Positions 9,470-61,991 of a DNA stretch of 64,000 nt are shown here, in pieces. A program made the translations under genes and the position numbers. The first letter of the stretch is position 1. Every line of letters starts with the position of its first letter. The stretch lies in NCBI RefSeq assembly GCF_009746125.1, contig NZ_CP041352.1, positions 1,968,436 to 2,032,435 on the forward strand. The letters run 5' to 3'. This DNA comes from Casimicrobium huifangae. GTDB taxonomy: Bacteria > Pseudomonadota > Gammaproteobacteria > Burkholderiales > Casimicrobiaceae. The notes below the pieces were generated by a model. That model did no database searches and was not told the DNA's origin. It saw only the letters and a program-made list of their open reading frames with translations.

Positions 9470-9490
9470 GTGCACGTCGGCGCGATAGTG

Positions 9491-9604
9491 GCTTTTCGCT
9501 GAAAGCGTTGATGGAAAAGGGCTCAGCGTCTATTTATTGACGTGTCGACTTATGCCATTTCATGGCTACAAGCCCAGTGCTGAAGCCATTTCATTGGAAA
9601 GATG
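9491..9604 (+). repeat. Structured 3'-end repeat, copy A
   Basis: This is the first of five related elements in the window. Landmarks are GCTTTT at 9491, GGGCT at 9519 (28 nt later), TCGACTT at 9545 (26 nt later) and AGCCC at 9571 (26 nt later), with GGAAAGATG closing the element. GCTTT (9491-9495) and AAAGC (9502-9506) can pair as a first hairpin, GGGCT with AGCCC as an outer stem, and GCCAT with ATGGC as a tight hairpin after TCGACTTA. It starts 21 nt after the phosphoesterase-like gene. The rest of the gap to 9741 shows nothing else I can name. Confidence 0.8.
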
Positions 9605-9740
9605 TACCGTTGAGCCCAGCTACGGTCGGCGCGAATTGTGCTTTTCCGACACCAGCGCAGCGCCGGGTGGTTTCAACCGTGGGAATATTGCAGCCCCGTC
9701 ACATCAATGCGCTTGAACGTCGTCGGGGGTTTGGGGAATA

Positions 9741-12700
9741 ATGAAAACAGTCAGGGGCACGCCTCTTGGTCACAATTATTTCGGGGAGGTTGCCTTGCTG
9801 CATCGTTTTCTACACCGCATTTGTCTGGCTGCAGTAACGTCCGCTGTGGCGCTGAGCGCGGGGCTGGCGCAAGCGCAGGTTTCGCTGACGACGCTCGGAA
9901 CGCCATACACACAAACCTTCGATACGCTACCCGCCTCCGGGTCCGTGACGTGGACTAACAACACAACCATCGCGGGCTGGTATCACGCTCGCACCGGCAC
10001 TGGTACGACAATTGTCGCCAATGATGGATCGTCAAACGCCGGCAACCTGTACAGTTATGGGACCGGCACAGCTACAGATCGTGCGCTGGGGTCGATTGGC
10101 TCCAGTAACACCGCAATCGGCGGACTGTATTGGGGCGTACGCTTTCAGAACAATACCGGAACAACGATTACGTCGTTGAATGTTTCTTATACGGGTGAGC
10201 AGTGGCGCAACAGCGCAGCTGCGGCGCAGACACTGGCTTTTTCCTACCTGGTCGGTAGTCCCACAGTGACCGGTTCGCTGGCTGAATTTCAATCGGCGGG
10301 CGTCGCCGTGACAAGTCTCGACTTTACGTCTCCCATTACCGGTGGCACAGCTGCTGCACTCAATGGCAACACCGCAGCTAACCGCACCGCCATCAGTTTT
10401 GTAATCACCGGGCTCAGTATCCCCAACGGCACCGAATTCATGTTGCGATGGTCAGATCCGGACCACGTTGGTGCGGACCACGGGCTTGCAATTGACGACC
10501 TGTCGGTTACGCCGCTTGGTGCTGTGGCGTTGCCCAACCTCACCATCAAAGACGTCTCCCTCAACGAGGGCAACGCCGGCACCACGTCATTTACCTTCAC
10601 GGTCAGTCTGTCGGCGCCTGCCGGTCCGGGCGGTGTCACGTTCGACATTGCGACAGCAGATGGCACGGCCACGCAACCCAGCGACTACACGCAGAAGTCG
10701 CTCACCGCACAAACGATCCCGGCTGGCAGCTCGACGTATTCCTTTACCGTGCTGGTGAATGGCGACGCCACACCAGAGACCAACGAGACCTTCTTCGTCA
10801 ACGTGACCAACGTGACCGGCGCGACGGTGACCGACGGTCAGGGGCAGGGCACCATCGTCAATGACGACGCCGCGCCGAACCTCACCATCAATGACGTTTC
10901 GCTGAGCGAGGGGAACGCCGGCACCACGACGTTCACCTTCACTGTGAGCCTGTCGGCGCCGGCGCCAGCTGGTGGCGTGACATTTGATATCGCTACCGCA
11001 AACGGCACTGCGACGGCGCCCAGCGACTACACCGCGAAGTCGCTGACATCGCAAACGATCCCCGCCGGTAGCTCGACCTATACGTTTGACGTGCTGGTCA
11101 ACGGCGACACCACGCCCGAGCTTGACGAAACTTTCTTTGTCAATATCACCAACATCACCAACGCGATCGGTACCGACACCCAGGGGCAGGGCACCATCGT
11201 CAATGACGATATCACCAAAATCCACGATGTCCAGGGCAACGGGGCGACCTCGCCAATGGTCGGTGCGACGGTCACGGTCGAAGGCATTGTCATCGGCAAC
11301 TATCAGGGCACCACGAAGCTGTCGGGCTTCTTTCTGCAGGAGGAAGATGCTGACGCCGACGCCGATCCGAACACGTCCGAGGGCATCTTCATTTTCTGCA
11401 ATAGCTGCCCGACTGCGGTTGCCGAGGGCCAGCGCGTGAGGGCGACCGGTGTCGTGTCCGAATTCAACGGCATGACCGAGATCACCGCCAGCACCGCGGG
11501 CTCGGTGGTGGTGACCAACGCTGGCAATAATCTGGCGCAGGTTACACCGACGGTCATTACGCTGCCCATAGCGGGCGACATCAATGCCTTTTACGAAGCT
11601 CGTGAAGGCATGCGCGTCACCTTTGCCAATACGCTGACAGTCTCGGAGTATTTTCAGCTTGGCCGCTACGGCACCATCGAGCTGTATCAGGGCGGGCGTC
11701 CGATGCAATTCACGGAAACCAGCGCTCCCAGCGTGGCGGGTAACGCAGCGTATCTGGCCAGTCTTGATGCACGGCGTGTCGTTCTTGATGACGACAACGA
11801 CGTCGAACAGGCCTACTTGGGCCTGCCCGATGGCAGCCAGTTCATTTATCACCCGCGCGCCAACGGCGGCTTCTCGGTGGGCACGCAGGGTACCGACTTC
11901 TTCCGTGGCGGAGACGTCGTCAACGGCCTGACTGGCGTGCTGCACTGGAGCTTCTCAGGTGGCAGCAGCGCGAGCGCGTGGCGTATTCGCCCGACGGCGG
12001 CCACGCCTGTGACTTTTACTGTCGCCAATCCCCGTCCGGCGGCGGCGCCGGCGGTGGGTGGGGCTATCAAGGCGGTGAGCATGAACATGCTCAACTACTT
12101 CACGACGATTGACACCACGGCCAGCAACAGCACTGGTCCCTGCGGCCCGGGTGGAACACTCGACTGCCGCGGTGCCGACAGCGTGGCCGAACTCAATCGC
12201 CAGCGCGAGCGGGCATCGATTGTGATCTGCTCGCTTAACGCGGATGTCTACGCGCTGATGGAGATGGAAAACACGACGCCAAGTGCGACGGTCACCGATC
12301 TGCTTGGTGCGGTGAATACCCGCTGTGGTGGAGCTCATCCGTTCGCGTTCGTCAACACCGGCGGCACCGTGGGTACCGATGCCATCCGGATCAACCTCAT
12401 CTACCGGACCGGGGTCGTGTCGCCGGTCGGCTCGCCGCTGATTGACCTCGATCCGATCCACAGCCGTCCGCCGATCGCGCAAACATTTGATGTGGTTGAC
12501 GCCACCAACCCTGCGTTCGGCAAACGCTTCAGCGTAATCGGCAATCATCTCAAGTCAAAAGGATCGAGCGCAGGTTTGCCGGGTGACACCGATATCGGTG
12601 ACGGGCAGGGCGCTTCGGCGGCGACCCGTACCGCGCAGGCTACTCGTCTGCTGACGTGGACCAGCAGCACGGTGATACCGGCCGCAGGCAATCCGGACGT

Positions 12701-15380
12701 GCTGCTGCTCGGCGATTTCAATTCGTATGCCATGGAGCCGCCGATCACCACGATCACCAGCGGCGGCTACACCGATCTTGCCTCAACATTGCTTGGGCCG
12801 GGCACCTACTCGTACCTGTTCGATGGTCAGCTTGGTCATCTCGACTACGCCTTTGCCAGCACCAGCCTCACGCCCAAGGTCACCGGTGTCGGCATCTGGC
12901 ATATCAATGCCGATGAGGTCGACCTGTTCGACTACAACGACGAAGTGCGCGACTCGCCGGGTGAAGCCACCTTTGAGGAAAAGCCCGATGGCTCGGCGCT
13001 GACGCCTCCGCGTGTCGTGTTCGCGCCGGGTACGCCCTACCGCGCGTCCGATCATGACCCGGTTATCGTCGGTCTGTTCCAGGTCGCCGACCTTGCCATC
13101 ACCAAGGTGGACACGCCTGATCCGGTGACTGCGGGCAACAACCTGACCTACACCATCACCGTGACCAACAACGGGCCGGATGCAGCCGCGTCGGCCTCCT
13201 GGTCCGACACGTTGCCGGCAGGGACAACATTTGTCTCGATGCCCACGGTCGCAGGCTGGTCGTGCGCCACACCGACGGTGGGCCTCGGCGGAACCGTCTC
13301 CTGCACGCAGGCAAGTTTTGCAGTGGGCAGCTCAGTGTTTACGCTGACGGTCAACGTCGGCGCCGCTGTTGCGAGCGGTACCGTGCTTTCGAATACGGCG
13401 ACGGTAACCTCCACCACTGGTGACAGCAATGCAGGGAACAACAGCGCCACGGCGACCACCACTGTCGCGGCGTCGGCCGACCTGTCGGTCACGGTAACGG
13501 ATTCGCCTGATCCGGTGCAGGCGGGCAGCAATCTGACCTATACGATTGCGGTGGCCAACGCTGGCCCGAGCATTGCCGCTGCGCCGACTGTGGGGGGAGT
13601 AATACCTGCCAATACCACAATGGTTTCGATTACGTCACCTGGTTGGCCGTGTACAGCGCCTGTCGTGGGGGGGACCGGTGCCTTCAACTGTTCATTGCCG
13701 GGAACGCTTGGCGTTGGTACTTCGACATTTACCTTGGTCGTCAAAGCGGACGCGAACGTTGCAAATGGTACGACCTTAACGAATACTGTTTCAGTCGGCT
13801 CTCCGACGTCCGACCCCGTTACCGGCAACAACAGCGCAACCGCATCGACCACGGTCACGGCGAGTGCTGATCTATCAGTCACCGTGACGGACAGCCCCGA
13901 TCCGGTCGGCGCTGGCAACACAATCACCTACAGCATCACCGTGGCCAATGCCGGCCCAACGGTGGCGGCTTCGGCGGCGATGACTGACACTTTGCCGGCT
14001 GGCACTACCTTCGCGTCGCTAGTGACGCCGGCTGGTTGGTCTTGCACCAATCCGTCCGTGGGCTCGGGCGGAACGATCAACTGCTCCACCATCGGCACAC
14101 TGCCGGTGGGCAGCTCGGTCTTCACCCTGGTGGTGACAGTGGCGCCAGCGACGGCGGCAGGGACGTTGATCAGCAACACGGCGACCGTGAGCTCGCCGAC
14201 CACTGACCCGACCCCGGGCAACAACAGTGCAACTGCGAGTACGACCGTGGTGGTCGCCAGCATGAGCCCCGCCTTCACGCTGGTGCCGACAGCGGTCGCG
14301 CCGGGGCAGGCGTTCACTGGCCTGACGCTGGTTTGCACCAATACCGGTGGCTCGCCGGCCACCAACCCGACCTGCGTGCCAAGCGCGAGCTTGGGCACCG
14401 TGAGTGCGGTGTCCTGCTCGCCGGCCAGCCCGGCAACGCTGGCCGCTGGTGCCGCAATCACTTGCAGTTTCAGCTACACCGCGCCGGGCACGGCGGGTGG
14501 TGGCGACGACAGCAATACGTCCATTGTCTTCACTGGCTCCACCAGCGCTGCCAACGCCAACGGTGGTGCCGTGTCCAGCGCCACCGCGACGGTACTGGTG
14601 GTTGACGCCGTCAATGATGGCCCGACCACGGTGCAGAACAACATCGCCAATGTGGTGAATCTGCTGGCCAACGATACGGTGGGCACGGTGGCCGCGAGCA
14701 CCGCCGGCATGGGCAACGCCACGGTCACGGCAAACGGGGCAGTCACCTGCGCCGGTTGCGTCGGCACACCAACAGTATTGACTATCGCCGCCAACGGAAC
14801 GGTCACGGTGCCAGCGTCGGCAGTTGCAGGCACCTACTCAGTGCCCTATCAGATCTGTGCTACGCCGGCCAACGCCGCGCCGCTGGCAGCCGCTTGCGAC
14901 AACGCGGTGGCGACGATTGTGGTGCAGGGCGCCGACATGGTCAGCCGCATCACCTGTACGCCAACGTCGGCCTCACCCGGCACCACCGTAACCTGCACGG
15001 CCACCTGTACCAACAACGGTCCGGCACCTGCAGTCAACGCGGTTTGCACCATCCTCAACGTGGCCGGATTGCCCGCAGGTGCCAGCACGCCGGTTTGCAC
15101 GGGGTCCCCTGCGGCCAGCCTGGCCGCAGGCGCGACGCTGACCTGCACGGTCACTTTCCCGATGCCGGCGCTGAGCTCGATCAGCATCGCTGCCGGTGCA
15201 GCGGCGGACAACGATGCGATGGGCGGCAGCGATCCCGCGGCGGTCAACAACAACGCCTCGTCCGTCTCGTTCGGCGCGCTGCTGGCAGTGCCTGGGCTTG
15301 ACGGGCTGGCGCTGGCGCTGCTTGGCTTGCTGCTCGCAGGCATCGGCTTCTGGCACGGAGCTCGTCGTCGCAGCCGATGA
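9741..15380 (+). CDS. Very large secreted ExeM/NucH-like endonuclease/exonuclease/phosphatase-domain protein
   Basis: The 1879-residue protein has a signal peptide (hydrophobic core CLAAVTSAVALSAGLAQA) and an N-terminal beta-rich domain (about 46-260). Two Calx-beta repeats (about 264-490) and an OB-like segment (about 493-600) follow. The DNase I-type EEP domain (about 774-1112) has NMLNYF, GNHLKSKG, LLGDFNSY, LDYAF and SDHDPV. Three DUF11 repeats start near 1117, 1247 and 1376. Further Cys-bearing repeats come next, then a VPGLDG, membrane helix and RRRSR tail like IPTL/PEP-CTERM sorting signals. The family (ExeM, NucH) degrades extracellular DNA. An in-frame TTG at 9795, preceded by GGGGAGG at ideal distance, is a strong alternative start and gives a more normal signal peptide. 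Confidence 0.88.
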   Translation: MKTVRGTPLGHNYFGEVALLHRFLHRICLAAVTSAVALSAGLAQAQVSLTTLGTPYTQTFDTLPASGSVTWTNNTTIAGWYHARTGTGTTIVANDGSSNAGNLYSYGTGTATDRALGSIGSSNTAIGGLYWGVRFQNNTGTTITSLNVSYTGEQWRNSAAAAQTLAFSYLVGSPTVTGSLAEFQSAGVAVTSLDFTSPITGGTAAALNGNTAANRTAISFVITGLSIPNGTEFMLRWSDPDHVGADHGLAIDDLSVTPLGAVALPNLTIKDVSLNEGNAGTTSFTFTVSLSAPAGPGGVTFDIATADGTATQPSDYTQKSLTAQTIPAGSSTYSFTVLVNGDATPETNETFFVNVTNVTGATVTDGQGQGTIVNDDAAPNLTINDVSLSEGNAGTTTFTFTVSLSAPAPAGGVTFDIATANGTATAPSDYTAKSLTSQTIPAGSSTYTFDVLVNGDTTPELDETFFVNITNITNAIGTDTQGQGTIVNDDITKIHDVQGNGATSPMVGATVTVEGIVIGNYQGTTKLSGFFLQEEDADADADPNTSEGIFIFCNSCPTAVAEGQRVRATGVVSEFNGMTEITASTAGSVVVTNAGNNLAQVTPTVITLPIAGDINAFYEAREGMRVTFANTLTVSEYFQLGRYGTIELYQGGRPMQFTETSAPSVAGNAAYLASLDARRVVLDDDNDVEQAYLGLPDGSQFIYHPRANGGFSVGTQGTDFFRGGDVVNGLTGVLHWSFSGGSSASAWRIRPTAATPVTFTVANPRPAAAPAVGGAIKAVSMNMLNYFTTIDTTASNSTGPCGPGGTLDCRGADSVAELNRQRERASIVICSLNADVYALMEMENTTPSATVTDLLGAVNTRCGGAHPFAFVNTGGTVGTDAIRINLIYRTGVVSPVGSPLIDLDPIHSRPPIAQTFDVVDATNPAFGKRFSVIGNHLKSKGSSAGLPGDTDIGDGQGASAATRTAQATRLLTWTSSTVIPAAGNPDVLLLGDFNSYAMEPPITTITSGGYTDLASTLLGPGTYSYLFDGQLGHLDYAFASTSLTPKVTGVGIWHINADEVDLFDYNDEVRDSPGEATFEEKPDGSALTPPRVVFAPGTPYRASDHDPVIVGLFQVADLAITKVDTPDPVTAGNNLTYTITVTNNGPDAAASASWSDTLPAGTTFVSMPTVAGWSCATPTVGLGGTVSCTQASFAVGSSVFTLTVNVGAAVASGTVLSNTATVTSTTGDSNAGNNSATATTTVAASADLSVTVTDSPDPVQAGSNLTYTIAVANAGPSIAAAPTVGGVIPANTTMVSITSPGWPCTAPVVGGTGAFNCSLPGTLGVGTSTFTLVVKADANVANGTTLTNTVSVGSPTSDPVTGNNSATASTTVTASADLSVTVTDSPDPVGAGNTITYSITVANAGPTVAASAAMTDTLPAGTTFASLVTPAGWSCTNPSVGSGGTINCSTIGTLPVGSSVFTLVVTVAPATAAGTLISNTATVSSPTTDPTPGNNSATASTTVVVASMSPAFTLVPTAVAPGQAFTGLTLVCTNTGGSPATNPTCVPSASLGTVSAVSCSPASPATLAAGAAITCSFSYTAPGTAGGGDDSNTSIVFTGSTSAANANGGAVSSATATVLVVDAVNDGPTTVQNNIANVVNLLANDTVGTVAASTAGMGNATVTANGAVTCAGCVGTPTVLTIAANGTVTVPASAVAGTYSVPYQICATPANAAPLAAACDNAVATIVVQGADMVSRITCTPTSASPGTTVTCTATCTNNGPAPAVNAVCTILNVAGLPAGASTPVCTGSPAASLAAGATLTCTVTFPMPALSSISIAAGAAADNDAMGGSDPAAVNNNASSVSFGALLAVPGLDGLALALLGLLLAGIGFWHGARRRSR

Positions 15381-21165: not shown

Positions 21166-21174
21166 GCGGCGCAG

Positions 21175-21293
21175 CAGCTTTTCTCTGTAAGCCGCACTCG
21201 AATTGGGCTTAAACAGCGAAATGATCAAATATCGACTTTAATCACTTTTGCTATTTGAGCCCAGTCCGGATGCGGTTTCTGGCAAAAAGATGC
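21175..21293 (+). repeat. Structured 3'-end repeat, copy B
   Basis: Landmarks are CAGCTTTT at 21175 (GCTTTT at 21177), GGGCT at 21205, TCGACTT at 21232 and AGCCC at 21258, closing with AAAAAGATGC. Spacings are 28, 27 and 26 nt. GCTT and AAGC (21177-21180, 21189-21192) form the first hairpin; TGGGCT and AGCCCA give a 6-bp outer stem. It lies 9-11 nt after modC in the same orientation. The remaining 21294-21541 holds no gene that I can see. Confidence 0.8.
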
Positions 21294-21552
21294 TTGCCTA
21301 AAAGGCTGTTGACACAAACCGGCCACGGCGCGGGGCGACGAGACAAAGCCAAGCAATCCGTGTGCAAATTTTAGGCAACTGCGCCCTGCTGCGTGCTACG
21401 CATGGTTGCGCAGCGCAGCAGCGGTTACGATTGCTGGCAAAGCTGAAACTGTGTAACCCCGCAACGCTGGTGACGCATTGGCCAACTGGCCGCGAACCCG
21501 CATCGGCATTGGGTTGCCTGACAGCGTAACGACCATGCCACAAGGAGGAACC

Positions 21553-40951: not shown

Positions 40952-41026
40952 GTTGCCGCCGACTGCGTTGGCGGGAGGGCAAGGTTGGCCTGTCCGTCCA
41001 CCCCACGCGTCGTGAGGGGGCTTATG

Positions 41027-41141
41027 GCTCTTTTCCGAAAAGCTTATTCACACTGGGCTTGAAGCCCAATTTGGTCAATTATCGACTTAGGCGCGAATGG
41101 CGCTGACGGCCCATTGTGGACGTCAATCCATCAAAAAGCTG
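41027..41141 (+). repeat. Structured 3'-end repeat, copy C
   Basis: Landmarks are GCTCTTTT at 41027, GGGCT at 41055, TCGACTT at 41082 and GGCCCA at 41108, closing with AAAAAGCTG (41133-41141). Spacings are 28, 27 and 26 nt. CTTTT (41030-41034) pairs with AAAAG (41038-41042) in the first hairpin; TGGGC and GCCCA form the outer stem. It stands between a plus-strand secreted-protein gene and a minus-strand one. Confidence 0.8.
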
Positions 41142-41170
41142 CTGCCGATTGGCCAATCGATCCGGCGTGC

Positions 41171-45119: not shown

Positions 45120-45146
45120 GTAGGGCGGGACGCTAGCGGTCCCGCC
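45120..45146. repeat. REP element (single hairpin) next to the RAYT gene
   Basis: GTAGGGCGGGACG then CTAGCGGTCCCGCC folds on itself: GGCGGGAC pairs with GTCCCGCC. The head sequence matches the REP arms at 45.7 and 46.8 kb. It lies just after the 3' end of the RAYT gene (45185), between it and the GNAT gene. Confidence 0.8.
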
Positions 45147-45184: not shown

Positions 45185-45721
45185 TCATTCGCCAACGGTG
45201 TCGCCCAAGGTATCTCCACCCGCCCAATCGTCGGCATAAACCCCACGATCAACCCACCGATGAAACGTCGAATGTGGCCAATCGGCCGGGCGCCCAACGT
45301 GACCATGCTTCACCGGGTTGTAGTGAACGTAGTCGAAATGGCGAGCGAAATCCCGTTCATCGCGGATGAGATGCTCCCAGAATCGGCGTTGCCACATGCC
45401 ACGCTCGCCGTTTACTGCGCGCGTCTCCGAGCGTCTTTCGGTCGGAGGAATCGCGCGGTTGAAGCGAATCTTGATGGCACGAATGCGGGCCGAAAAGTCA
45501 GAGTCACCCGGCGGCAGCGTGAGCATCATGTGCATGTGCTCGGGCAACACCACCCAGGCGTCGATGCGGAAAGGCCGCTCCTGTTTCGTGACACGCACGG
45601 CGCTGCGTAACGCGTCGATGTTGTCAACGAGCAGACGATTGCCCCGCCGTTCCAGCAGCGTCACCGTGAAGAAGTACGAACCACCCGGAACGAACAGACG
45701 ACGATAGTCAGGCATGTCCAA
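45185..45721 (-). CDS. REP-associated tyrosine transposase (RAYT, Y1/HUH family)
   Basis: The 178-residue protein is a complete TnpA_REP-type HUH nuclease. The start PDYRRLFVPGGSYFFTVTL is the typical RAYT N-terminus. The metal-binding histidines are in LPEHMHMMLTLP (H-x-H, near residue 63), and the catalytic tyrosine is in FDYVHYNPVKHG (near residue 130). WQRRFWEHLIRDERDF is also conserved. RAYTs process and spread REP/BIME hairpins. A REP hairpin and a BIME lie at its two ends (45120-45146 and 45724-45830), so it appears in its natural genetic context. Confidence 0.93.
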   Translation of the reverse strand: MDMPDYRRLFVPGGSYFFTVTLLERRGNRLLVDNIDALRSAVRVTKQERPFRIDAWVVLPEHMHMMLTLPPGDSDFSARIRAIKIRFNRAIPPTERRSETRAVNGERGMWQRRFWEHLIRDERDFARHFDYVHYNPVKHGHVGRPADWPHSTFHRWVDRGVYADDWAGGDTLGDTVGE

Positions 45722-52929: not shown

Positions 52930-52978
52930 GGTGCAACCGGCGCCTTCGAGCGACGTGCTGAGCCACCGACCACCTGAT

Positions 52979-53094
52979 CAGCTTTTCGATGAATCCATCA
53001 TCTGATAAGGGCTCAGGCGGTCTTTAGTCAAAAGTCGACTTAAGGCGAATTGCTCGGTCAGCCCTTATCAAACCTTCATTTCAGGCCAAAGCTG
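52979..53094 (+). repeat. Structured 3'-end repeat, copy D
   Basis: Landmarks are CAGCTTTT at 52979 (GCTTTT at 52981), GGGCT at 53009, TCGACTT at 53035 and AGCCC at 53060, closing with AAAGCTG (53088-53094). Spacings are 28, 26 and 25 nt. The outer stem is the best in the family: TGATAAGGGCT pairs with AGCCCTTATCA over 11 bp. CAGCTTT at the left end and AAAGCTG at the right end are perfect 7-bp terminal inverted repeats. Confidence 0.82.
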
Positions 53095-53182
53095 TCGTTG
53101 CAAACGATGCGGTCGGCCGTTGCGTCGAAGCCGCTGCGTTAGCCTCCGTCATCAGCCTGCACGCTGCGGGTTGGAGACAAGG

Positions 53183-59129: not shown

Positions 59130-60731
59130 ATGAAAGCTGTCATTGCACAACTCAATCTTCTGGTCGGCGACCTCAAGGGCAACGCCGCCAAAATCCTTGA
59201 TGCGGCGAAGTCTGCTGCGGCCGTCAATGCCGATCTGCTGCTGACCCCCGAGCTTTCCATCTGCTCCTACCAGCCGGAGGATCTGCTGCTGCGGCCTTCG
59301 TTCATTTCTGCGTGCAAGACTGAGGTGGAGGCGCTGGCGACGCAACTGCCGCCTACGCTCGCGGCGATTGTTGGCCTGCCGTGGCGCGATGAGACAGGGC
59401 TCTACAACGCAGCGGCCGTGCTGCGTGGTGGCAGGATTGAGGCCATCTATCGCAAAATGGACCTGCCCAACTATTCGGTGTTCGACGACAAGCGCTACTT
59501 CGAGCACGGCAACGCGGCGACGGTGGTCGACGTCGGCGGCGTTCGCGTTGGTTTGCTGATCTGCGAAGACATCTGGTTCCCGCGCGCGGCGGCGCTCGCG
59601 CGCGAGGCCGGTGCGCAGGTGCTTGCGGTGATTAACGGCTCGCCCTATGACACCGAGCATCTCGACGGCCGCGAAGCCGCGTGTCGCGAGCGCTGTGGGG
59701 AGCAGGGGCTGCCGATCCTGTTCTGCAACCTGGTGGGTGGGCAGGACGAGATTGTTTACGACGGCCAGTCGTTTGTGATGGACGGCAAGGGCGAGGTCGT
59801 GCAGCGGTTGCCGGGATTTGTCGAGGCCACCGCCGTGGTTGAGTTTGAGGGCGCCACCCCGATACCCGTCCGCTACAACCGCCCGCAAGGCCGGGTTGCC
59901 GACGTGTATGCCGCGCTGGTGCTGGCGGTTAAGGACTACATCAACAAAAACCGCTTCCCCGGCATCGTGCTCGGGCTTTCGGGCGGTATCGATTCGGCCG
60001 TCGTGCTCGCGATTGCGGTTGACGCGCTGGGGCGCGACCGCGTGCGCTGCGTGATGCTGCCGTCAAAGTTCAATGCCAGCATCAGTCTGGACGACGCGCG
60101 CTGGATGGCCGGCGTACAGAGCGTGCGTTACGACGAAATCCCGATCGAGCCCGTCTATGAGGCGTTCGAAGCGGCGCTGGCCGACCAGTTCAAGGGTTAC
60201 CCGGTGGACGCCAGCGAGGAGAACCTGCAATCGCGCATCCGCGGCACCATCCTGATGGGCATCTCGAACAAGACGGGCTTTCTGGTGCTGACGACGGGTA
60301 ACAAGAGCGAGATGACCACCGGCTACGCCACGCTCTACGGTGATATGGCCGGTGGCTTCGGCGTGCTCAAGGATTGCGACAAGGAGCTGGTCTACGACCT
60401 CGCCAACTGGCGCAACACGCTGGGCCGCGTGATCCCGGAACGCGTCATCACCCGTGCGCCATCGGCCGAGCTGCGCAACGATCAGACCGATCAGGATTCA
60501 CTGCCCGAGTACCCGATTCTCGACGAGATCATGGCGCTTTACATGGAGCAGAACCTGTCCGCTGCCGAGATCAAGGCGAAGGGCTTGCCGCCGGCGGACG
60601 TGGACAAGGTGGTGCGGCTGCTGCGCATCAACGAATACAAGCGCCGCCAGGCTCCTGTCGGCCCGCGCGTCACGCCGCGAGGCTACGGGCGCGACTGGCG
60701 GTACCCGATTACGAGTGGGTGGCGGGAGTAG
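59130..60731 (+). CDS. nadE: Glutamine-dependent NAD+ synthetase
   Basis: The 533-residue enzyme makes NAD+ from deamido-NAD+ and ATP with nitrogen from glutamine. The N-terminal nitrilase-type glutaminase domain (about 1-255) has Glu in LTPELSICSYQPEDLL, Lys in YRKMDLPNYSVFDD and Cys in LLICEDIWFPRA. The C-terminal synthetase domain (about 270-533) starts with the PP-loop GLSGGIDSAVVLAIA and has GTILMGISNKTGFLVLTTGNKSE (broken near 375-400) and SAELRNDQTDQDSLPEY. Length matches the two-domain form. No clear ribosome-binding site precedes the ATG. Confidence 0.95.
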   Translation: MKAVIAQLNLLVGDLKGNAAKILDAAKSAAAVNADLLLTPELSICSYQPEDLLLRPSFISACKTEVEALATQLPPTLAAIVGLPWRDETGLYNAAAVLRGGRIEAIYRKMDLPNYSVFDDKRYFEHGNAATVVDVGGVRVGLLICEDIWFPRAAALAREAGAQVLAVINGSPYDTEHLDGREAACRERCGEQGLPILFCNLVGGQDEIVYDGQSFVMDGKGEVVQRLPGFVEATAVVEFEGATPIPVRYNRPQGRVADVYAALVLAVKDYINKNRFPGIVLGLSGGIDSAVVLAIAVDALGRDRVRCVMLPSKFNASISLDDARWMAGVQSVRYDEIPIEPVYEAFEAALADQFKGYPVDASEENLQSRIRGTILMGISNKTGFLVLTTGNKSEMTTGYATLYGDMAGGFGVLKDCDKELVYDLANWRNTLGRVIPERVITRAPSAELRNDQTDQDSLPEYPILDEIMALYMEQNLSAAEIKAKGLPPADVDKVVRLLRINEYKRRQAPVGPRVTPRGYGRDWRYPITSGWRE

Positions 60732-60765
60732 TTTTCCTCGGCGCGGCGTACCGTCAGGCCTGTTG

Positions 60766-60836
60766 GCTTTTGATGAAGAAGCCCACCAACGCTGGGCTTG
60801 AAGCTCGAATGTGCCATTAGTCGACTTCATCGATTT
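60766..60836 (+). repeat. Structured 3'-end repeat, copy E, left fragment
   Basis: Landmarks are GCTTTT at 60766, GGGCT at 60794 (28 nt later) and TCGACTT at 60821 (27 nt later). GGCTT and AAGCC (60765-60769, 60779-60783) form the first hairpin. The element is cut at the TTT at 60834-60836, where the IS30 element begins. It starts 34 nt after nadE in the same orientation. Confidence 0.8.
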
Positions 60837-61926
60837 GCTGCGTTTAAGTACGAACTGTCGGCGAGCGCGGCGAAGAGAAGTGTATTTCGTAAGGAGTCAA
60901 GCCGTTCAAGATTTTGCGAGGACGGCGGTTGATGAAGTCCTGCACCTGTGCGACGTAGTCGTCTGAGTAGCTGTCCATGGAGCGCCCCCTGGGGAAGAAC
61001 TCGCGCAGCCAGCGGTTGACGTTCTCACAGGAGCCGCGCTCATCGGCGCGGTAGGCGTGACAGACAAAGAGTTTGTCTTTGAAGAACTGCGGTAGACGAG
61101 CAAATTCAGCGCCTCGGTCACAGGTCAGGGTTTTGAGCGTTGAGCCTTTAAGCAGCGATTGGGCGCCAATGGCGGTGGCAATAGCGCTCTTCTTGAATGT
61201 GCCCAGCCGCACGTAGCGGCTCTTGCGGTCCAGAATCACCAGTAGGCGATGCTCGTCGCGCTGACGTCCCCAGAGCGTGTCGCACTCCAGATGATTGCGC
61301 TCCAGCCGCCGATTAGCGCGCTCGGGGCGCTCGCTGATACTCTGAGCCTTGGCGGCCCAGCCCGTATCGCGGCCCTTCGCACCGTGGCGCGTCGTTGTGC
61401 GCGTGCCCGAGCGTCCCCGCCAGAGCACGCAGGACGGGTCGCTCATGCGCTCCCGTTTGAGCCACGCGTAGACGGCCGGCGTCGACAACGACAGACGCGG
61501 CTTGCCAGCTGCCCTGGGCAGTCGACCCAGCATGAGGCTCACCCCTTCAGGCGACAGCCGCTGCGGCTCGTCAAACAAGCCGTAGAGCTGCAGCAACAAC
61601 TCGCCCTGAGTCTTGACCACCACGTTGGCCGCCGAGCGCGCGGCGCAGCGCTGCCGATCAAGCCCCGCGCGGTACGCGTTGTAGCGTTTGCCAGCGCAAC
61701 GATCAAGCTCCCGCTCGACCGTGCGCGGGCAGCAGCCGAGCTGCCGCGACAGCTCGGCTGCTGCCCGCATCCCCGCCTGCCTCAACGTCTCAAGTTGTAT
61801 CCTCTTCTCTGGGGTGAAGAAAGCCATAAACACCGTCCTTTAGTCTTCAAGAAACCAAAGGGTAGCGCTTCGCTTATCTTCATCCCTCCCAATGCCTAAG
61901 TGCGACTGTTCGTGGTTTAACTCAGC
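60837..61926. mobile_element. IS30-family insertion sequence inserted in repeat copy E
   Basis: The element spans about 1090 bp. Its left end reads GCTGCGTTTAAGTACGAAC then TGTCG, and the reverse complement of its right end reads GCTGAGTTAAACCACGAAC then AGTCG, 19 matches of 24. TTT stands on both sides (60834-60836 and 61927-61929), fitting the 2-3-bp target duplication of IS30. Joining the flanks after removing one TTT restores a continuous repeat copy with normal spacing. Ends are deduced by eye. Confidence 0.82.
60844..61833 (-). CDS. IS30-family transposase
   Basis: The 329-residue protein has an N-terminal HTH (FTPEKRIQLETLRQAGMRAAAELSRQLG, broken here around 8-35; CCPRTVERELDRC is its second helix). 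The DDE catalytic domain has Asp in ECDTLWGRQRDEHRLLVILD, Asp in LTCDRGAEFARLP, and Glu in DERGSCENVNRWLREFFPRG, followed by FINRRPRKILNGLTPYE. This order and the C-x-x-D-R-G-x-E-F form are those of IS30. Complete and without frameshift, so possibly active. The stop codon is 7 nt from the left IS end. Confidence 0.95.
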   Translation of the reverse strand: MFMAFFTPEKRIQLETLRQAGMRAAAELSRQLGCCPRTVERELDRCAGKRYNAYRAGLDRQRCAARSAANVVVKTQGELLLQLYGLFDEPQRLSPEGVSLMLGRLPRAAGKPRLSLSTPAVYAWLKRERMSDPSCVLWRGRSGTRTTTRHGAKGRDTGWAAKAQSISERPERANRRLERNHLECDTLWGRQRDEHRLLVILDRKSRYVRLGTFKKSAIATAIGAQSLLKGSTLKTLTCDRGAEFARLPQFFKDKLFVCHAYRADERGSCENVNRWLREFFPRGRSMDSYSDDYVAQVQDFINRRPRKILNGLTPYEIHFSSPRSPTVRT

Positions 61927-61974
61927 TTTTCTGTTGCCTAGCCCTTATTCAATGGGTTTCGGCGTCAATTGCTG
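61927..61974 (+). repeat. Structured 3'-end repeat, copy E, right fragment
   Basis: This is the continuation of copy E after the IS30 element. AGCCC is at 61940. Counting from TCGACTT at 60821 to the IS (16 nt) plus the 10 nt from 61930 to 61939 gives 26, as in copies A, B and C. The closing segment at 61970-61974 reads TGCTG. Confidence 0.7.
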
Positions 61975-61991
61975 ATCGGCGGCAAAATTCC

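Follow-up and report, generated by a model that had tools for sequence, protein, structure and literature searches.

An insertion sequence (IS) of the IS30 family splits one copy (copy E) of a dyad-symmetric DNA site of approximately 122 bp. The window, i.e., the whole stretch of 64,000 nucleotides that was analyzed (G000:C1:1968436-2032435), belongs to a genome of 4,465,898 bp in a single contig, and five copies of the dyad were located in it with centers at 9546, 21233, 41083, and 53036, and at 60822 for the split copy (Table 1). Insertion of the IS in copy E, together with its targeting of dyad sites, was regarded as nearly certain. Judging from sequence, the dyad is likely to be a protein-bound DNA site, and we had equally good confidence in targeting and protein binding taken together.

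The IS30-family element and its insertion in copy E

The element carried an IS30-family transposase, terminal inverted repeats, and a short target duplication (TTT), and annotated IS30 transposases matched its transposase at approximately 31% (tblastn). The boundaries at 60837 and 61926, proposed beforehand by a model from the letters alone (the sequence-only reading), were borne out by terminal repeats identical at 19 of 24 positions and by TTT on both flanks, the junctions reading TTT-IS-TTT. The same reading had taken TTT as the target duplication. When nine lengths (0 to 8 bases) were removed together with the IS and the right arm was scored, removal of three bases was the best, in agreement with this proposal: 17.2 bits, against 13.1 and 11.5 bits for four and two bases, respectively. 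Target duplications of 3 bp are found in some members of the IS30 family. After one TTT was left out, the rejoined copy E had a right arm of 59 nt, with AGCCC at an offset of 26 from TCGACTT. This was the 26-nt spacing that had been claimed for three intact copies as well; the value held for copy E, but was not uniform among the half-sites of the window, since only two of the four matching TCGACTT...AGCCC exactly had an offset of 26, and the other two (both arms of 53036) had 25.

Comparison with a relative lacking the IS at this site, also proposed in the sequence-only reading, was possible in G018. The orthologous site was uninterrupted, and its right arm was 59 nt, the same as in the rejoined copy E. 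Orthology was based on the same downstream gene and on a flank segment with 88% identity over 339 bp; in G018, approximately 1 kb of other sequence lay between nadE and the site. Since the letters of the G018 arm had diverged, the geometry of the junction was confirmed, but not every base. In the window, the 3' end of the NAD+ synthase gene was 91 bp ahead of the dyad center of copy E, and a site was also present 3' of nadE in G011, G019, and G012.

A search of the genome with the window IS revealed one full copy, the other match being an inverted segment of 44 bp within this IS itself; a check on further copies was, therefore, possible solely in relatives (see below). A 44-bp near-perfect palindrome was located inside the transposase gene (61725-61768), and an IS relative in G016 had a palindrome at what by eye appeared to be the equivalent position, changes on one side being matched on the other; the comparison covered two sequences only. 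From its sequence, this palindrome is perhaps a translation-controlling hairpin. Elsewhere in the window, tandem repeats of 300 and 93 nt with 60-75% identity were found at 10532-15023, and probably belong to a predicted large repetitive surface protein.

Table 1. Features of the window related to copy E, the IS, and the intact dyads.
Feature	Position	Strand	Basis and remarks
Intact 122-bp dyad	9486..9607		HMM 40.7 bits, both arms
Intact 122-bp dyad	21173..21294		HMM 64.9 bits, both arms
Intact dyad, right arm without exact AGCCC	41023..41144		HMM 36.0 bits, both arms
Intact dyad, both arms strict	52976..53097		HMM 61.3 bits; strict pattern
NAD+ synthase gene	59130..60731	+	Pfam NAD_synthase, CN_hydrolase
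Copy E: left arm, dyad center (between 60822 and 60823), first 14 nt of right arm	60762..60836		Half-site HMM 16.6 bits
Target duplication TTT, left copy	60834..60836		Sequence; top score on removal of three bases
IS30-family insertion sequence, 1090 bp	60837..61926	-	Only full copy in genome
Terminal inverted repeat, transposase 3' side	60837..60860		19/24 identity between IS ends
Transposase gene, 329 aa	60844..61833	-	NCBIfam NF033563 transpos_IS30, 147.1 bits (cut-off 80)
Terminal inverted repeat, transposase 5' side	61903..61926		19/24 identity between IS ends
Target duplication TTT, right copy	61927..61929		Sequence
Copy E: rest of right arm, starting at second TTT (arm positions 12-14)	61927..61976		HMM 11.1 bits at 61928-61974; 59-nt arm once rejoined

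Architecture, placement, and species range of the dyad sites

The repeat recognized in the sequence-only reading was half of the dyad-symmetric site. Outward from the center, an arm consisted of GACTT(TT), AWWT at positions 12-15, a middle box centered near position 34 (AGCCC..GAATGnGG in the window genome), and AAAAGCTGWT at positions 52-61. Aligned arms were conserved to position 61, including AGCCC (positions 25-29, which had been used for picking the arms) and GAATGnGG and TTT (positions 35-46). Among the seed right arms of the genome (n = 64), 49, 14, and 1 were 29-, 28-, and 30-nt arms, respectively. The existence of the repeat family, claimed before from the window, was well founded: half-sites of the pattern TCGACTTN{15,22}AGCCC numbered 268 in the genome and 2 in the reversed control, and strict full dyads 47 and 0, respectively. 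In a sample of 864 kb (40 stretches of 20 kb around the chromosome plus the window), 124 half-sites scored 8 bits or more with a 62-position model, compared with 1 in the reversed sequence; once the duplicate entry arising from the split copy E was removed, the sample contained 69 sites. A contiguous region of 864 kb, partly overlapping the sample, contained 67 sites, and the number per genome was estimated by extrapolation to be approximately 350.

The information per site was approximately 88 bits, a somewhat inflated figure because the sites had been picked with the model, whereas approximately 14 bits would suffice to mark 345 places in the genome. This surplus suggests a large multi-contact complex, as a reading of the sequence. 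A period of 9.5-10 bp was present in the AT content along the arm (equaled in 0 of 2000 column shuffles), but the power at 8 bp was equal, and in the flank part of the arm it was higher at 7.5 bp than at 9.5-10 bp. Helical phasing was not established because the 8- and 7.5-bp power was as high or higher.

In the contiguous 864 kb, with genes called by our own codon-usage script (not a standard predictor), 65 of the 67 sites were in intergenic gaps and 2 inside called genes. Among gaps of 110 bp or longer, sites were present in 20 of the 40 convergent, 12 of the 80 divergent, and 30 of the 167 tandem ones. Copy E is one of the 20, and its gap owes the convergent arrangement solely to the IS gene; when copy E was left out, the convergent excess had Fisher p values of 2.5e-4 and 2.6e-4 against divergent and tandem gaps, respectively. 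The median distance from the dyad center was 87 bp to the neighboring 3' end and 162 bp to the neighboring 5' start. Spacing in the same region was more even than in random draws among gaps of the same types: the interval CV was 0.63, against 0.95 in the controls (0 of 5000 as even), and 8 intervals were shorter than 5 kb, with 18.9 expected. Evenness persisted at thresholds of 12, 25, and 35 bits (0, 5, and 5 of 2000 controls, respectively). Under-dispersion (lower-tail p = 6.5e-5) was also seen in the 20-kb stretches (n = 40, with 7 falling within the contiguous region): one was empty, with 8.3 expected, and sites were present in 39 of the 40 stretches spread around the chromosome. In a 358-kb contig of G011 with 21 paired sites, evenness was not significant (CV 0.74, against 0.90; 797 of 5000). 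An initial G011 estimate (28 sites, CV 1.04) was dropped because 7 of its hits were unpaired shadows of a true site 67 bp away.

Among the 64 genomes of the family, 6 carried the strict full pattern, all of them belonging to one genus; of 274 genomes taken from the class, the outer-plus-core pattern occurred in 2, the window genome and one with a single match. A scan of named genomes gave 90 stretches with a strict full dyad; among the matches listed (80), there were six metagenome-assembled genome (MAG) assemblies, with titles naming Burkholderiales, Betaproteobacteria, Proteobacteria, or (one locus) Deltaproteobacteria. This last locus (L080; JAKQOD010000145.1) had one strict 56-bp dyad, the other 79 listed loci being in MAGs with one of the first three labels, and may represent a mislabeled bin, a misbinned contig, or a transfer.

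Within the genus, type A half-sites (with AGCCC) were numerous in G000 (268), G013 (208), G017 (182), G015 (176), G018 (163), and G016 (135), and numbered 18 in G010 (control 5) and 1 to 11 in the remaining ten genomes (controls up to 5). Type B half-sites, with ACGACC in place of AGCCC, numbered 59, 55, and 21 in G011, G012, and G019, respectively, and 0-5 elsewhere. A looser outer-plus-core pattern was above the control in G010 and the type B genomes (35, 131, 67, and 67), not above it in G005-G009 and G014, and marginal in G020 (11, against 2). Overall, sites were clear of the controls in 10 of the 17 genomes.

In three sister species, the layout was retained together with the core, AAGTCGACTT, and with AAAAGCTG as the outer box, but the 21-bp middle box was a different one, at orthologous places as well. 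In G011 stretches that had been chosen around sites, the G011 model detected 134 halves with scores of 8 bits or more (reversed control 3) and the G000 model 3; conversely, the G011 model detected 21 halves in the G000 sample. Of 14 G000 sites mapping into G011 (not counting three rows that mapped poorly or at a distance and a single weak half-hit), nine were matched by a G011 site at the corresponding position, in most cases within approximately 20 bp and in one case 121 bp off, and five had none. Examples of identical layout with a different middle box were L176:13167 and L235:16268, L169:16916 and L240:17272, and the window site 53036 and L244:349; an ortholog table (70 of 174 rows with a nearby site) repeats overlapping loci of site-chosen stretches and serves for examples only. 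The nadE gene tree was too weak to tell whether the middle box had switched once. We think that the dyad sites are under continuing selection: from species to species, the layout, core, and outer box are retained at orthologous loci, and the middle box differs.

IS ends at dyad sites in related genomes

A loose search for the IS ends in the 17 genus genomes gave 61 matches, against 63 in the reversed control, indicating that such matches are mostly chance. Flanks were tested for 11 ends: all seven outside the window with at most two mismatches, and four with three mismatches that resembled IS ends. After G012:C282 (22/27, not aligning with this IS) was dropped, ten related ends were kept. Seven of them, in G010, G016, and G019, adjoined a site at E < 1e-4: G010:C154 and G016:C169 by the type A model, and G019:C283, C675, C644, C939, and C868 by the type B model. 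No site was found at E up to 1 in the control flanks of 21 chance matches, and the question raised in the sequence-only reading, whether IS30-type elements target the repeat, was thereby answered in the affirmative.

Flanks with the outer part of a site started at arm position 12 and those bearing the center at position 14 (15 in C283), which means that the 3 bp at arm positions 12-14 were duplicated, the same as in the window. Type A and type B sites had this register in common, as did ends of either orientation: six were one way, and C283 and the window IS the other. Since seven of the ten ends shared one register, the IS targets the sites at the AT block 13 bp off the dyad center, and targeting of the hairpin apex, raised as a question in the sequence-only reading, was not supported. 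C939 may be one side of a single insertion with C644 or C675 as the other, and the seven ends, therefore, represent at least 6 insertions. The presence of one full IS copy in the window genome and the three of ten ends unmatched to a site would suit an IS that struck copy E by chance without target preference; however, a shared register at seven ends from three other species, compared with 0 of 21 control flanks, makes such a coincidence hardly credible, and its variant in which the ends were inherited is made unlikely by the occurrence of either orientation and of type A as well as type B sites.

The ends unmatched by the models were G010:C77, G010:C139, and G016:C532. Of these, G010:C77 fits by eye, has a duplication equal to that of C154, and may be the other side of the C154 insertion. 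At G016:C169, the second half-site was absent from the opposite IS flank, perhaps due to a deletion. Ends with at most two mismatches occurred in four of the ten site-bearing genomes (the window's own counted) and in none of the seven without clear sites; a close relative of the IS end was not seen in the other six site-bearing genomes. Contigs C283, C675, C868, and C939 of G019 and C77 and C154 of G010 ended approximately 150 bp or less inside the IS, a sign that the IS probably has several copies, in G019 at least, and breaks the assembly at dyad sites.

Insertion at the center of a hot spot is a preference of IS30 and not a requirement of the family, and was not followed by the window IS (arm positions 12-14). 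The element resembles E. coli IS30, which prefers near-palindromic hot spots, in transposase family, terminal repeats, and palindromic target preference, but differs in a duplication of 3 bp instead of 2 bp, in having a host site family as its target, and in a cut off the symmetry center (PMC9333248, accessible part). Since IS30 hot spots and the targeting of REPs by ISs are both known, landing of an IS in extragenic palindromes is a known kind of event.

Nature and possible role of the dyad sites

The repeat had been regarded as a hairpin; compensatory pairing between the arms was absent, and this view was not upheld. Complementarity of the variable arm parts was 0.400 in 29-nt arms, against 0.383 (sd 0.014) when shuffled between sites, and 0.325 in 28-nt arms, against 0.338 (sd 0.021); middle boxes covaried neither in G000 nor in G011. 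Apparent covariation in unregistered arms was gone once the 28- and 29-nt arms were aligned. Folds were more stable than dinucleotide shuffles (mean z -2.3 for 104 sites; -0.04 for 56 controls), but hybrid sites with arms swapped between sites folded equally well (-35.6, against -35.5), and the stability is therefore attributable to the shared dyad. The stability leaves a small probability for a single-strand role of the sites. A terminator of transcription acting in both directions, or an RNA hairpin, at the ends of genes would agree with the fold scores and the preference for 3' ends. In spite of this, we consider it highly improbable: neither arms nor middle boxes covaried, the swapped arms folded as well, 12 of the 67 sites were in divergent gaps, and an Rfam scan of the window gave a tRNA and no other match, so that neither an Rfam match nor a covarying stem, the marks of a Rho-independent terminator or known RNA, was found.

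Mobile repeats of the REP or MITE type, spread by copying and without present function, are an explanation to which we give very little probability. It is favored by hundreds of intergenic palindromic copies, by a REP-associated transposase in the window, by REPs being known IS targets (PMC1525189, accessible part), and by the five mapped sites missing in G011. On the other hand, pairwise identity at 24 weakly conserved columns was that of column shuffles, with shared descent of the copies not seen, and 58 sites at 18 offsets showed no clear excess of flanking target duplication, the mark of a MITE, outside the site itself (largest signal: 4, against 0, for 3-mers at one offset). Of the features of REP/BIME elements, an intergenic location and more than 100 copies were found, but not a compensatory stem-loop or co-occurrence with REP-associated tyrosine transposases (RAYT): the RAYT domain (PF01797) was present in 15 of the 17 genus genomes, siteless ones included, and did not track the sites. 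Nine of the 14 mapped sites at the orthologous place in G011 (in stretches chosen around sites) and the even spacing in G000 also argue against mobile repeats. Viral contigs gave 0 matches to the outer-core-outer pattern; one match to the strict type A pattern scored 3.4 bits with the full model and was rejected as chance. The absence of arm covariation and of copy-and-paste descent in the weak columns leaves a protein-bound DNA site as the most likely nature of the repeat.

Near position 45 kb, the window contained a REP-associated tyrosine transposase (45356-45652; NF047646, 113 bits) beside GTAGGGCGGRACGC hairpin repeats at 45120, 45724, and 46825. This is a conventional REP system, separate from the dyad family. 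REPs are short hairpins. They are targeted by ISs of the IS3, IS110, IS4, IS256, and IS5 families and bind gyrase, IHF, and Pol I; IS30, to which the element described here belongs, is not among the families named in the accessible part of that source (PMC1525189). REP/BIME with their targeting ISs (IS1397, ISKpn1, and IS621) resemble the present case in that hundreds of intergenic palindromes serve as a specific IS target. The dyad sites differ in their 122-bp length, spaced boxes, lack of covariation and of a RAYT link, even spacing in G000, and a middle box that is species-dependent at orthologous places.

DNA gyrase was the main rival because its motif in E. coli is symmetric, extends over 130 bp, and consists of a central part between periodic flanks, with gyrase sites enriched in BIME-2 (PMC6379681; see also PMC12393610; accessible parts); gyrases of three species showed a 10-11 bp GC periodicity (PMC12324340, accessible part). 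The dyads would then be genus-specific strong gyrase sites, wrapped and cut near the dyad, removing positive supercoils at gene ends. Length (approximately 122 bp), symmetry, 3'-end proximity, and some AT periodicity at 9.5-10 bp agree with this, and AT/GC alternation is likewise shared with the E. coli motif and the Mu strong gyrase site (PMC6379681, accessible part). We nevertheless regard this explanation as unlikely: approximately 88 bits per site with exact boxes (e.g., AACGACC..GGTCGTT), a very high sequence specificity, differ from a degenerate motif, the middle box differs among sister species, the phasing is not clean but mixed with 7.5-8 bp, and the sites are genus-limited in the genomes searched, with a single chance-level match outside the genus among the family and class genomes.

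As to the protein-bound DNA site, a protein complex would cover the dyad, and its middle-box specificity would have changed between species. The AWWT block may be distorted or exposed in the complex and so receive the IS. The IS30-family element uses the dyad site as a target, inserting at arm positions 12-14 and duplicating 3 bp, and copy E was split in this manner. The transposase would either read the core/outer geometry itself or follow bent or protein-bound DNA. Evenly spread nucleoprotein complexes at gene ends might anchor loops or limit supercoiling; such a role in chromosome organization is the leading candidate, with a probability somewhat below even. Chromosome-organizing sites such as matS and parS are short (approximately 13-16 bp) and confined to a region. 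The dyad sites resemble them in their many copies, with protein binding and a chromosome role presumed here, and differ in being long and occurring around the chromosome.

No description of the dyad site family or of its dedicated IS30-family element was found in the literature searched, which was mostly without subscription journals, and a literature search with the core sequence gave no paper about such an element among the matches listed. Slightly more doubtful than the chromosome role is the reading that the sites are a new class of element, i.e., approximately 350 evenly spread 122-bp nucleoprotein sites delimiting units of approximately 13 kb, with a fast-evolving binder and a dedicated IS30-family exploiter, the address box having been rewritten at orthologous loci genome-wide in one or more lineages.

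Supercoiling or loop domains in bacteria are approximately 10 kb. How the chromosome is divided into such domains is an old question, and few sequence-defined boundaries are known; the dyad sites are a sequence-defined, evenly spread, and directly testable family. The difference in the middle box at orthologous positions is a natural case of a change in DNA-binding specificity at very many sites. The IS provides an independent physical read-out, marking one reactive point, 13 bp off center, per entered site, and the entry of its relatives at an identical point of dyad sites in other species suggested that the sites are probably a protein-bound, chromosome-wide element.
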